64,000 nt of DNA from Rhodobacteraceae bacterium REDSEA-S34_B6 (GTDB taxonomy: Bacteria; Pseudomonadota; Alphaproteobacteria; Rhodobacterales; Rhodobacteraceae). The stretch is taken from the NCBI GenBank assembly GCA_001627925.1, contig LUQC01000022.1:550-64549 (forward strand), given 5' to 3'. Positions 5,272 through 9,310 of the stretch are shown one piece after another. Numbering within the stretch: the first letter of the stretch is position 1; each line of letters starts with the position of its first letter. The notes beneath the pieces are model-generated. The model made no database searches. It saw nothing but the letters and a program-made list of their open reading frames with translations, and was not told where the DNA came from. Position numbers and translations under genes: made by a program.

Positions 5272-7548
5272 TTATTTTTCAGTAAGCTTGATCTCAATTC
5301 TACGGTTTTGAGCCCTTTCCTCTGGCGAAGATCCAGATGTGACCGGTTGAAATTCCCCAAAACCAGTTGCGGCCAATCGATCTTTTGGGAAACCCAGATC
5401 AGAAATCATAAAACGTACTACCGATAGAGCCCTTGCTTGGCTTAGCTCCCAATTATCTTTGAATTCCGCACCTGAAACCATGGAGGTATTATCCGTATGA
5501 CCATCAACTCTTATTATCCAATTTAAATTCTTTGGGAGTTCTTTTACTACTTGATTTAAAATCACGGCTACTTTTTGGATTTCTAATCGACCAAGTATAG
5601 ATAAATCGGCTTTTCCAACGTCAAATAAAACCTCAGATGAGAAAACAAATCTATCTCCTACAATTTTTATGCCTTCTTTCCCTTCGACTAATTCTCTTAT
5701 TCTCCCAAAGAAATCAGACTTATATCGTTCCAGTTGAGTTGCCTGAGATTGGAGGCGCTCACGCTCTGCTTGCAATCTATTAAACTCGGCAACTTCCAGC
5801 TTTATTCGCTTATCTTCTTCGACTTGGGCTTTTATTTCCGCACGTTCCAAATCTGTTTTGGAGGCAATTAACTGTGAATTAAGGATCGTAATTTCGTTTA
5901 ATTTAGCTTCAATCTCTAGTCTCAAACTTTGTTCCAGTTGCCTTTTCTTTCTTTCCTCAGACGCAACGCGGGCTAGTGCAGCGTTAAGCCTGTTGCCCAA
6001 GTTTTGGAGTTGAATTTCGTCTTCCCTATCTTTTTCTTCAGATAGGGTTAGGATTGATTGTAAAGAACTCAGCTGACGACGAAGCTCTAATACTTGCTGG
6101 TTCAAAAGTGCCGTCTCTCGTTGGCTTTTTAAAAGGCTATCAGAACTTTCAGATAATTGTTCAGACCGTTCTCGCAACTGCTGTTGGGCCTTTTGCAACA
6201 AAATTTCTTTTTTCTTTAACTTTGAGGTGCTTTCTGCATTTAATTTTTCAGAAACAAGCTTAGCTGCGAGGACATTTTTAAGATTTTCTAGTGCCTCTTT
6301 CTGAGACTGAAGGGCGGCCCATCGAGCCGCTAGCGCATCTGCTAATTTTGAACGAAGATCCGTAATGTCTTGTGCGCTATCGTCCTCAAAGGTTTGACGA
6401 CTCAGTTTTTCTTGCTCCAACGCCATTAATGCATTAGCCAAATCACTCTCAGCAATTGTTAATTTCTCACTGTAATCTTTAAATTGTGCTGTTTTCTCGT
6501 TAATATTTTGACTTAAATTTGACAACTCCAACTCTAATCTCTGCTGCCTTGCTAACGATGCAGCAAGTGCAATTTTGGTCTCATCTAACTCAGCATCACT
6601 ACTCTGAATATCTTCTTTGAGAGATTTAAGCTCCGTTTCGCTATTTCCAATTGTTAGATTAGCAGCCTCTAAAGCGATGATAGTTTGCCTGAGATTGTCT
6701 TCTATTTCTAATTTAGCTGCATCTGCAGCTGCCAACAGCGTAAGGGTGTCCTCTGCACGTTTTCTTTCTTCCTCCAAAATCAAAGTCATTGCTGTAAGCT
6801 CGGCATCGGCTTCTTCTAGCCTCTTCCTAAGTTCAGCGGCAGCGGCAGCTTCAATTAGTTTGGCAGCTTCTTCATCATCAAGTGCTATTCTTAAATCCTG
6901 AATTTCACTAGCTTGCAATTCTATAGTTTTGTTTGCGTCACTTTTTTCGGTCTCTAATGACCTAATAAGAGCCTCTAGTGCTTCTCTCTCCGCGGCTTTC
7001 AATCTCGCTTCCTGCTCTGCCAAGTCTATTTCATCACGTGCTTGAGACAAGGCCAAAGCAAGTGCTTCTTGCTGATCCAACAAAGATTTGCGTTCAGTTT
7101 CCAATTGATCAATCTGGGTTCTAGACGCAGCTTGTGCTGCTAATAAATTTGCTACCTGGACCTCAAACTGAGTGATTTGAGTTAGCGCATCATCTAAAGC
7201 TGCTTTACTTTCATTGTTTTGAAGCCTCAGGCTTTCTATTAACAGGCTTTTCTGCTCGTTTTCTGCGTTTCTGTCATTTAGTGTACTTGTTAAAATTCCC
7301 AAGTCACTTTCAAGTTTGACTACTTTAGATTTTTCAAGGCCTAAGGCCTCCGAAATAGCAACAATTTCTGCAGCAAGAGCATCAAGTTCGCTTTCTTGAC
7401 CAGTGATAGTTTCTCTTAGAACGAATTGGATGACCATGAAAATGGTTAATACAAACATCAATACGAGCAATAAACCGGTCATTGCATCCACAAAACCAGG
7501 CCAAATGGATGCCTGAAATCGTTGACCTGTGCGTCTCGATAGAGCCAT
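5272..7548 (-). CDS. MotB/OmpA-like stator protein with a very long periplasmic coiled coil
   Basis: A 758-residue protein in three parts. First, a short cytoplasmic N-terminus and one membrane helix (about 18-45) beginning PGFVDAMTGLLLVL; Asp21 sits where MotB/TolR/ExbD proteins carry the ion-binding Asp. Second, about 570 residues of Ala/Glu/Leu/Lys/Gln-rich heptad sequence (about 45-615) predicted as continuous coiled coil. Third, an OmpA/MotB peptidoglycan-binding domain (about 637-758) with VLFDVGKADLS, RVDGHTDN and the terminal NRRIEIKL signature. It starts 2 bases after the MotA/ExbB-like gene, so the two form a unit. MotB is usually near 300 residues; here the extra length is all coiled coil. 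No flagellar genes are nearby. Function unknown; an envelope-spanning ion-driven machine is an inference. Confidence 0.85.
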   Translation of the reverse strand: MALSRRTGQRFQASIWPGFVDAMTGLLLVLMFVLTIFMVIQFVLRETITGQESELDALAAEIVAISEALGLEKSKVVKLESDLGILTSTLNDRNAENEQKSLLIESLRLQNNESKAALDDALTQITQFEVQVANLLAAQAASRTQIDQLETERKSLLDQQEALALALSQARDEIDLAEQEARLKAAEREALEALIRSLETEKSDANKTIELQASEIQDLRIALDDEEAAKLIEAAAAAELRKRLEEADAELTAMTLILEEERKRAEDTLTLLAAADAAKLEIEDNLRQTIIALEAANLTIGNSETELKSLKEDIQSSDAELDETKIALAASLARQQRLELELSNLSQNINEKTAQFKDYSEKLTIAESDLANALMALEQEKLSRQTFEDDSAQDITDLRSKLADALAARWAALQSQKEALENLKNVLAAKLVSEKLNAESTSKLKKKEILLQKAQQQLRERSEQLSESSDSLLKSQRETALLNQQVLELRRQLSSLQSILTLSEEKDREDEIQLQNLGNRLNAALARVASEERKKRQLEQSLRLEIEAKLNEITILNSQLIASKTDLERAEIKAQVEEDKRIKLEVAEFNRLQAERERLQSQATQLERYKSDFFGRIRELVEGKEGIKIVGDRFVFSSEVLFDVGKADLSILGRLEIQKVAVILNQVVKELPKNLNWIIRVDGHTDNTSMVSGAEFKDNWELSQARALSVVRFMISDLGFPKDRLAATGFGEFQPVTSGSSPEERAQNRRIEIKLTEK

Positions 7549-7550
7549 GT

Positions 7551-8723
7551 TTATGTTTTCCGATCAGAACTCTTAGCACTAGTTGATTGCAAACTATCTG
7601 CTAAATTAGCTATTTCTTCTCTGATAGCTTTGATAGCTTCCTGCCTTCCAACGGCTATTTCCTCTGATATGTGAAGCATTTGAACATCGATTGATCTTAG
7701 TCTCATCCTACTTTCAGCATCAATCCCACCCTCAACCGACACTTTTGACTTAAGAAAATCTAATAATTGTTTCTGTGATTTAGTAAAATTATCGATCAAA
7801 TTCTCCAAATTAGACTTATTCTCGTCCATAACTTTAACAAATTTATCTTGAAGAATCGCAAACTCGCGATCGGTTGGTGCCATAGTGGATTGATCTTTAT
7901 TTAAGAAACGCTCCATCAATTCGATTTGATCCCCTAAACGCTCGAAGATACCTAGGAGAATCGTGTTGTCTGTTGAAGAATTGCCTTCGTCTACTGTCAC
8001 ATTGAAACTAGTAATTGTTGAAAGCCATTCTTCAAGTTCACGATAAAATCTATTCTGCGCTTGACCTGCAAACAGTTCTAACAATCCAACTACTAAAGAT
8101 CCTGCAAGCCCCAATAAAGAAGAAGCAAAAGCAACCCCCATTCCGCTTAACTGTCCCTCAAGGCCACTCATCAATCTAGTAAAAACCTCAAAGCCTGTCT
8201 CACCCTCTTGAGGAGCTAGCGATCTTATTGTTTCTACAAGTGCTGGCACCGTTGTTGCCAAACCGTAGAATGTTCCCAATAGTCCTAGAAAAATCAACAA
8301 ATTGACAATATAGCGAGTTATTTCTCGAGCCTCTTCGACTCGAGTAGAGACAGACTCAAGAATTGACTGCGATGAAGAAGCCGAGATTTGGATGCTTGCT
8401 CCACGCGACCTTAACAAGGTTGCCAATGGAGCCAATAGCTGAGGTGCATTTGAAGAACCCTTATCGGGCTTATTTACAAACTCCTCTATCCAACGAACAG
8501 ACTTAATTAACTGAACAACCTGAACAAAGCAGCTTATTACTCCAACAAAAAAGACAAAAAGGATAAACCCGTTCAACCACAAATTAGCTGTAAATACCGC
8601 CAATACTCTCGGGGCCGCTACAACTGTTCCTGCACTGGTAAGCGCCAGAACGCTGAGCATCAGCAAAACTTGACGTATTGGCTGAGAAAAATGTAGTTCG
8701 ACCTCTTGCTCTGATTTTACCAT
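7551..8723 (-). CDS. MotA/TolQ/ExbB-family proton-channel protein
   Basis: A 390-residue membrane protein. Four hydrophobic segments are visible near residues 18-40, 50-75, 140-162 and 192-222. The third contains LIFLGLLGTFYGLATTVPAL and the fourth GMGVAFASSLLGLAGSLVVG, the two conserved pore helices of MotA/TolQ/ExbB proteins. A cytoplasmic region of about 150 residues follows the last helix and ends with a charged helical tail. It lies directly before the giant MotB/OmpA-like gene (2-base gap), so the two probably form one stator-like complex in the inner membrane. It is not flagellar MotA by context. Family assignment is secure; the process it powers is unknown. Confidence 0.85.
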   Translation of the reverse strand: MVKSEQEVELHFSQPIRQVLLMLSVLALTSAGTVVAAPRVLAVFTANLWLNGFILFVFFVGVISCFVQVVQLIKSVRWIEEFVNKPDKGSSNAPQLLAPLATLLRSRGASIQISASSSQSILESVSTRVEEAREITRYIVNLLIFLGLLGTFYGLATTVPALVETIRSLAPQEGETGFEVFTRLMSGLEGQLSGMGVAFASSLLGLAGSLVVGLLELFAGQAQNRFYRELEEWLSTITSFNVTVDEGNSSTDNTILLGIFERLGDQIELMERFLNKDQSTMAPTDREFAILQDKFVKVMDENKSNLENLIDNFTKSQKQLLDFLKSKVSVEGGIDAESRMRLRSIDVQMLHISEEIAVGRQEAIKAIREEIANLADSLQSTSAKSSDRKT

Positions 8724-8785: not shown

Positions 8786-9310
8786 TTAGCTCTTAATTTT
8801 CTTAACCTGTTGCACCAAATAGCGCAGATCAACGGAAGAAACCCCTAACTCCGTGAGTTTTTTTTCAGTACTAAACAGATATTCATCATTACGACCGCGC
8901 CCTCCTTCTGCCTCCGCGATAATCTTTGCTTGCTCATCAAGCGTTAATTGACAGTACTGATCATGATCTTTCTTTATGACGAAAGTAATTGCTGTTACCA
9001 ATTGTTTAGAAGTAGCTAACTCGACTTGAACTTCGGTTTCTTCATATGCCGATGACACTAGTTCTCTCTCTCGAAGATATAATAAAACTTGGGTATAGTT
9101 ATCTGGGGATACCCTAAACACTACCCCCTTACAGCTGCGACCATTACATTTTTCCAAAGCCAAAACCAAACCAGGCCTTTTGACAGTTCCTCTATGATGA
9201 ATTGACCACATGGAAAAACTTCGCTTGTAATTTTTTATTTCTGCAAGCTCACTTGTTTGAAATTCAAAACCTGGATTCCAAATTAAAGATCCATAGCCAA
9301 AAACATACAT
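8786..9310 (-). CDS. Gamma-glutamylcyclotransferase, ChaC type
   Basis: A 174-residue protein beginning MYVFGYGSLIWNPGFEF, the signature P-loop-like motif of the ChaC/GGCT fold. The family Glu that acts as acid/base is probably in the LRERELVSSAYEE stretch (about residues 79-91). Characterised ChaC enzymes split glutathione into 5-oxoproline and Cys-Gly in the cytoplasm. It diverges from the DUF2125 gene and lies about 60 bases before the MotA-like gene in the same direction, so it may share transcription with the motor pair. Family call firm; glutathione as substrate inferred. Confidence 0.88.
   Translation of the reverse strand: MYVFGYGSLIWNPGFEFQTSELAEIKNYKRSFSMWSIHHRGTVKRPGLVLALEKCNGRSCKGVVFRVSPDNYTQVLLYLRERELVSSAYEETEVQVELATSKQLVTAITFVIKKDHDQYCQLTLDEQAKIIAEAEGGRGRNDEYLFSTEKKLTELGVSSVDLRYLVQQVKKIKS

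Follow-up and report, generated by a model that had tools for sequence, protein, structure and literature searches.

A core-genome, ZorAB-related gene pair of Alphaproteobacteria with a long coiled coil on its predicted wall-binding subunit

Introduction

What might a MotA/ExbB-like channel do for a cell when its partner carries hundreds of residues of coiled coil ahead of a wall-binding domain? The question is raised by two genes in a 64,000-nucleotide stretch of Rhodobacteraceae bacterium REDSEA-S34_B6 (assembly GCA_001627925.1, contig LUQC01000022.1, positions 550 to 64,549), referred to here as the window. An earlier note, made from the sequence alone, described them as a channel and a coil subunit 2 bases apart, and both open reading frames (ORFs) were found there with that gap between them. 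Our analysis favours, with a probability of about 0.6, a core-genome motor of the ZorAB branch, driven by the proton-motive force (PMF) and holding a housekeeping role in the envelope, not one in phage defence or flagella, with a wall-anchored coiled-coil shaft. The pair is a new architectural variant in that branch. It would add a further kind of envelope motor to Tol, Ton and the flagellar stators, one that is core to a major bacterial class and has no name, and whose channel has no Pfam family.

Results and Discussion

Distribution

A search with the N-terminal 71 residues of the coil subunit recovered it from 244 of 246 Rhodobacteraceae genomes, one copy in each, and the channel was present in 114 of 173 sampled Alphaproteobacteria. 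The partner coil gene adjoins the channel in nearly all fetched loci where the sequence allowed this to be seen, with few exceptions, and a profile search returned a few orthologues outside the class. The pair belongs to the core genome and is not mobile. Going beyond the earlier note, it is a universal core pair of the Rhodobacteraceae, and in other families it often follows a third gene, which is OmpA-like. The earlier observation was sound and understated: it concerned a core pair whose coil, in relatives beyond the Rhodobacteraceae, obeys a length rule that can be tested.

The Channel Subunit

The channel is 390 residues long, with approximately 170 of them beyond the last membrane helix according to both the sequence and its AlphaFold2 model. 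Its hydrophobic segments lie at about residues 16-44, 52-70, 137-163 and 192-222, and the two motifs earlier assigned to pore helices, GLLGTFYGL and GMGVAFASSLLGL, are present in the third and fourth of these, respectively. Against Pfam family PF01618 (MotA_ExbB) it scored 12.7 bits, under the gathering score of 22.9 bits (17.1 bits for homologue L142), and thus it is profile, fold and tree evidence that places it in the superfamily. Among solved structures, those matching the model best were TolQ, ExbB, ZorA and MotA. Foldseek gave probabilities up to 1.00 to TolQ/ExbB, with a best E value of 5e-3 and template-modelling (TM) scores up to 0.6 by target length. VIA gave Z 12.0 over 192 residues to TolQ and Z 11-12 over approximately 190 residues for TolQ/ExbB, values around 12 that helical bundles can reach by chance, yet the top rows were nearly all members of the MotA/TolQ/ExbB/ZorA superfamily. 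When the channel alignment was used for a profile search of the PDB, nothing but unrelated coiled coils came back, matched via the channel tail. Judged by its modelled fold and its conserved-Asp partner, the channel is a member of the MotA/TolQ/ExbB/ZorA superfamily, its Pfam score notwithstanding. In the helical cytoplasmic tail, at residues ~335-361, a motif DAESRMRLRSIDVQM...EE...GRQ is highly conserved in Rhodobacteraceae, and its counterpart in other families is partly conserved; it is a possible docking site for a cytoplasmic partner.

The Coil Subunit

Hydropathy and charge predict an N-in topology for the coil subunit, with a single hydrophobic helix at about residues 22-44 that has Asp21 at its start and is preceded by R5, R6 and R10. 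This topology would place the coil in the periplasm, as the earlier note had it. Asp21, to which that note had also drawn attention, is invariant in our alignments (80/80 and 163/163 homologues) and joins the fold, profile and tree evidence for membership in the ion-motor superfamily. At the other end of the protein, the OmpA domain PF00691 matches residues 642-749 (E = 5e-17) and includes the motifs DGHTD (Asp686) and NWELSQARA (Arg706). These two residues, which occupy MotB-type, diaminopimelate-binding positions, are invariant in alignment A3 and have equivalents in about 160 of 163 homologues, and the nearest solved structures by sequence are MotB-type domains. A peptidoglycan-binding function is accordingly predicted for this OmpA/MotB domain, as it was before. 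The coil subunit exceeds the curated cut-off of the NCBIfam equivalog NF006542 (PRK09039) with 659.5 against 388 bits and is already catalogued by NCBI as 'peptidoglycan-binding protein'; the models NF006542-NF006546 give the name only, without function, channel partner or description of the coil.

The region between these ends comprises approximately 570 residues of heptad coil (residues 46-615), and several results uphold the claim that it is a coiled coil. Proline is absent between residues 17 and 672, and the strongest hydrophobic periodicity is at 3.5 residues (z = 7.4, with none of 300 shuffles as high). A hendecad coil was rejected, the period of 3.667 being no stronger than in shuffles (z = 0.5). 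An unsupervised cyclic model with seven states, given 158 homologous coils without labels, arrived at two hydrophobic positions spaced by three and four residues, namely an a position rich in Leu/Ile/Val and similar residues (61%) and a d position of mainly Leu and Ala, together with charged e and g positions, a pattern as expected for a parallel dimer. According to this model, 284 of 298 register shifts across the family are stutters, skips or stammers. AlphaFold2 predicts long helices at residues 17-243, 258-388, 397-507 and 510-621 followed by the OmpA fold, with modest confidence (a mean predicted local distance difference test (pLDDT) score of 69). In the conservation profile, the patches standing out in the first coil block lie at about residues 121-140, 161-200 and 221-280, and relatives show mostly or only gaps at residues 541-600. 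The most conserved patch, residues ~221-280 (positions 6709-6888 of the window, minus strand; ELTAMTLxLExxRKxAExTLTLLAAA, 57-77% identity), overlaps a low-confidence helix break of the AlphaFold2 model and may be a hinge or a binding site.

At 0.1485 nm per residue the coil would be about 85 nm long if straight, close to the 80 nm estimated in the earlier note. The periplasm is 20-30 nm wide, and the coil therefore cannot stand upright. Either it runs along the wall or it has to bend or fold back, much as had been proposed (bundling was also mentioned), perhaps near the register shift at about residue 389.

Relation to Zorya and Other Motors

The tree built from the pore region places the family with ZorA3 and away from TolQ/ExbB and MotA (99/98), and the three MotA rows form a separate clade (100/99). 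The family is thus likely sister to ZorA3, judging from these sequences. Weaker profile matches outside Alphaproteobacteria include A subunits of 675-1258 residues beside B subunits of mostly ~215 residues; those that were tested are ZorA3 and ZorB3 by PADLOC, with scores of 815-1574 bits to the ZorA3 models. The ZorA3 model PDLC00648 gave no match in Alphaproteobacteria, but the control genomes likewise had none. Type III Zorya, as defined by PADLOC, shares with the pair a GLLGT-type pore helix and a B subunit with an OmpA/MotB wall domain, and a W-x-x-F-x-D membrane segment is common, by eye, to ZorB3 and the coil subunit. A ZorB D24N mutant is among those listed in the Zorya literature (PMC11890865). 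The differences are those of the lengths given above, since ZorA3 has a long cytoplasmic tail and ZorB3 is short, whereas the channel here is the shorter and the coil subunit the longer partner. Furthermore, the pair has no effector genes and a core-genome distribution, in contrast to the patchy and mobile Zorya. The long helical part is on the opposite subunit and, by predicted topology, on the opposite side of the membrane, a contrast already drawn in the earlier note.

MotA/MotB stators resemble the pair in the Asp of the B-subunit helix and in the MotB-type wall domain (NWELS..RA, DGHTD), but the pair does not occur with flagellar genes and has a very long coil in place of the short plug and linker of MotB. 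The channel fold and the GLLGT pore motif are also those of TolQ/TolR and ExbB/ExbD, whereas here the partner has a long coil together with a domain of the OmpA type. This genome has its own TolQR and ExbBD besides the pair, and a MotA was not found in it, so the pair is none of these. A flagellar stator was ruled out, with no MotA found in the genome and a separate MotA clade in the tree, in agreement with the non-flagellar reading made before. GldL/GldM of type IX secretion is a 5:2 motor whose B subunit reaches 18 nm into the periplasm as an extended shaft (PMC9389320), and the pair, with a presumed 5:2 composition, may be likened to it on grounds other than sequence; the GldM shaft, however, consists of folded domains and is not a coiled coil with a wall-binding end. 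In a 2025 survey, non-flagellar B subunits were reported to lack an OmpA-type domain, some of them having very large periplasmic domains (PMC12505986). The coil-subunit family, which has such a domain, is an exception to that statement.

Coil Length Across Species

Coil length was measured from the invariant membrane-helix Asp to a conserved FFG motif ahead of the wall domain. Among 80 Alphaproteobacteria-like loci outside Rhodobacteraceae this distance ranges from 142 to 754 residues and takes 46 distinct values. Taken modulo 7, 59 of the 80 fall in one class, 13 and 7 in the classes reached by +4 or +3 residues, and 1 elsewhere; nearly all off-class lengths are therefore one stutter or stammer away. 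A chi-square test on the distinct lengths gave p=3e-20, a value that describes this coil family alone and includes whatever share is common to any long coil, the two being inseparable here. A chance modular pattern was rejected, given that moduli 5, 6, 8, 9, 10, 11 and 13 were flat, as was a comparable distance inside the channel. Sister pairs gave a similar result: in 31 independent pairs differing in length, 17 differed by a multiple of 7, 13 by a 3/4-residue shift and 1 otherwise, with no such pattern in the similar distance inside the channel that served as internal control. Heptad phase, rather than length, looks conserved outside Rhodobacteraceae. Length that is free but mostly heptad-stepped suggests that the coil works there as an unbroken rod. 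Length in sensor-kinase linkers is also heptad-dependent and reflects the passage of signals through continuous coiled coils (PMC6798134). This precedent makes phase coupling plausible in our case, with plain coil stability as the alternative. The rule found outside Rhodobacteraceae offers a direct and simple experimental handle on the question of whether torque or angular phase can pass through the periplasm along a coiled coil.

Within Rhodobacteraceae the distance from Asp to the wall domain is longer, 362-1340 residues, and that of the window is 594 residues, i.e., class 6 modulo 7, as read from a 98%-identical relative. Phase conservation is strong across the class and relaxed in this lineage. 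A Pseudoprimorskyibacter homologue (locus L097, 6249-10757) has a coil subunit of 1502 residues with ~1340 residues from Asp to the wall domain, nearly 200 nm if straight. Symmetric hairpin insertions, i.e., steps of 14, found no support, with classes 5 and 12 modulo 14 holding 23 and 36 of the other Alphaproteobacteria. A periplasmic 'ruler' of fixed length is disfavoured by lengths that span a nine-fold range across species and one of more than three-fold inside Rhodobacteraceae. On the whole, the earlier note was right in its observation, and of its interpretation the superfamily, the coil, the periplasmic side and the contrast with Zorya stand, while the nine-fold range speaks against the idea that the coil measures a fixed length.

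Proposed Mechanism and Alternative Explanations

In the favoured explanation, channel subunits, probably five, would form a ring around the membrane helices of two coil subunits, and ions would pass by Asp21, as is suggested by ZorB and MotB. Outside the membrane the two coil subunits would continue as a parallel two-stranded coiled coil, which may carry motion or tension to the peptidoglycan-bound OmpA/MotB domain or be held by it. We infer the stoichiometry, rotation, dimeric state, force transmission and envelope role of this motor; envelope maintenance is the function that we favour. A number of points count against it. Structure prediction covers single chains, the 5:2 and dimeric states being deduced, and AlphaFold2 breaks the coil with low confidence at residues 244-257, 389-396 and 508-509, so that hairpins are possible. 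The ZorA3 rows with which the family groups came from a search that used the profile of the family itself, a bias towards nearness, and the ZorA3 branch is long. In Rhodobacteraceae heptad quantisation is weak (p=5e-4 on distinct lengths) and sister pairs differ by whole heptads in 6 of 32 cases, which is not significant, leaving strict phase coupling unsupported in the window's own family. Finally, as far as our searches of the open PMC literature reached, no functional study or published phenotype of PRK09039 or of the pair was found.

A more specific version of the favoured explanation, namely a housekeeping rotary motor that turns or twists a phase-locked coil shaft of species-specific length, is rather unlikely. 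In such a machine the motor and the wall end would be kept in fixed angular register, and the length of the driveshaft could change by whole heptads without loss of function. There is a little less than an even chance that the heptad quantisation merely reflects the tolerance of coiled coils for in-register insertions and is silent on how motor and wall are linked. The coils of Rhodobacteraceae do move from one phase class to another, and the register shifts are almost all of the classical tolerated kinds, as this would have it; however, the net phase from Asp21 to the wall is the same in those 59 of 80 loci despite their 46 lengths, which in the coil family measured seems stricter than local stability needs. 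The same phase conservation would also fit rotation or piston signalling of the type proposed for sensor-kinase linkers (PMC6798134), and the wall-binding domain, long coil and pore, occurring together, could form a passive or gated tether. Such a tether would be a tension sensor or an ion channel under regulation, with a pore gated by wall strain that is passed along a coil which does not rotate. The conserved tail motif of the channel could then pass the signal on. We nevertheless regard a tether as improbable, given that those relatives that have been characterised (TolQR, ExbBD, MotAB, GldLM) are motors driven by the PMF and that neither a cytoplasmic signalling domain nor a conserved regulator gene was observed next to the pair.

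A second Tol-like system could cooperate with Tol-Pal or with the upstream OmpA-like protein and hold together the outer membrane, wall and inner membrane during growth or division. Tol components are essential in R. sphaeroides and relatives (PMC9275681), and a proline-rich OmpA-like gene directly precedes the channel in 26 of 59 loci of other Alphaproteobacteria. This explanation remains unlikely to our mind, as no TolA, TolB or Pal gene was found near the pair, the upstream gene has no Rhodobacteraceae homologue above the generic OmpA level, and the tree sets the channel apart from TolQ. Zorya-like anti-phage defence would suit the closest relatives, ZorA3/ZorB3. Defence systems are patchy as a rule. 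The near-universal single copy and the conserved housekeeping synteny (chaC; efp and suhB elsewhere) argue against defence, as do the absence of a ZorC/D/E-type effector beside the pair in the window and of a long cytoplasmic tail on the A subunit, and we consider it very improbable. With phage-defence motors as its nearest relatives, the pair may illustrate roles that ZorAB-type motors had before, or have beside, defence.

Gene Layout and Neighbours

Table 1. Positions in the window of the two genes, their segments and the neighbouring chaC-type gene.
Feature	Position	Strand	Basis
Channel (A) subunit, 390 residues	7551..8723	minus	ORF call
Coil (B) subunit, 758 residues	5272..7548	minus	ORF call; PF00691, NF006542, AlphaFold2, heptad model
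Conserved WPGFVDAMTGLLLVL membrane segment of coil subunit, residues 16-45, with Asp21	7414..7503	minus	Alignment; by-eye comparison with ZorB3 W-x-x-F-x-D
First coil block, residues 46-388, one unbroken register, 49 heptads, ~51 nm if straight	6385..7413	minus	Heptad model
Second coil block, residues 389-615; stutters at 389 and 541, skip at 581	5704..6384	minus	Heptad model
Residues 616-758, including the predicted OmpA/MotB peptidoglycan-binding domain	5275..5703	minus	PF00691
chaC-type gamma-glutamylcyclotransferase gene, upstream of the pair	8786..9310	minus, same strand as the pair	PF04752, E=1e-43

The features of the locus are listed in Table 1. In the window, clpA lies beyond the coil gene in convergent orientation. 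A survey of 80 named Rhodobacteraceae loci, of the kind that the earlier note had suggested, revealed chaC as a conserved neighbour, upstream on the same strand in 78, and clpA inside the fetched flank in 64. The coil gene was visible in 79 of these loci, and in the remaining one the sequence ends before the gene could show. No evidence was seen for chaC as a part of the machine. ORF inspection of the window (chaC, clpA, a metallo-hydrolase) revealed no ZorC/D or ZorE effector-type gene beside the pair, the PADLOC scan having extended to chaC alone among the neighbours; the earlier remark that no effector gene follows agrees with this.

Outside Rhodobacteraceae a common gene order is thiE-efp-suhB-OmpA-like gene-channel-coil, where thiE, efp and suhB were named by reading the sequences and not by family search. 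In loci L155 (3924-4862) and L182 (4083-4970), and in 24 similar loci, the gene upstream of the channel codes for a proline-rich protein that looks secreted and whose OmpA-like domain retains the Arg motif but has AYA in place of the MotB GHTD. It is seemingly missing in Rhodobacteraceae, where the coil is longest, and was rejected as a necessary part in the window's genome for want of a close homologue in that family. In genome G028 a homologue of this gene is present and the channel was not detected; this genome could show whether the OmpA-like protein works alone.

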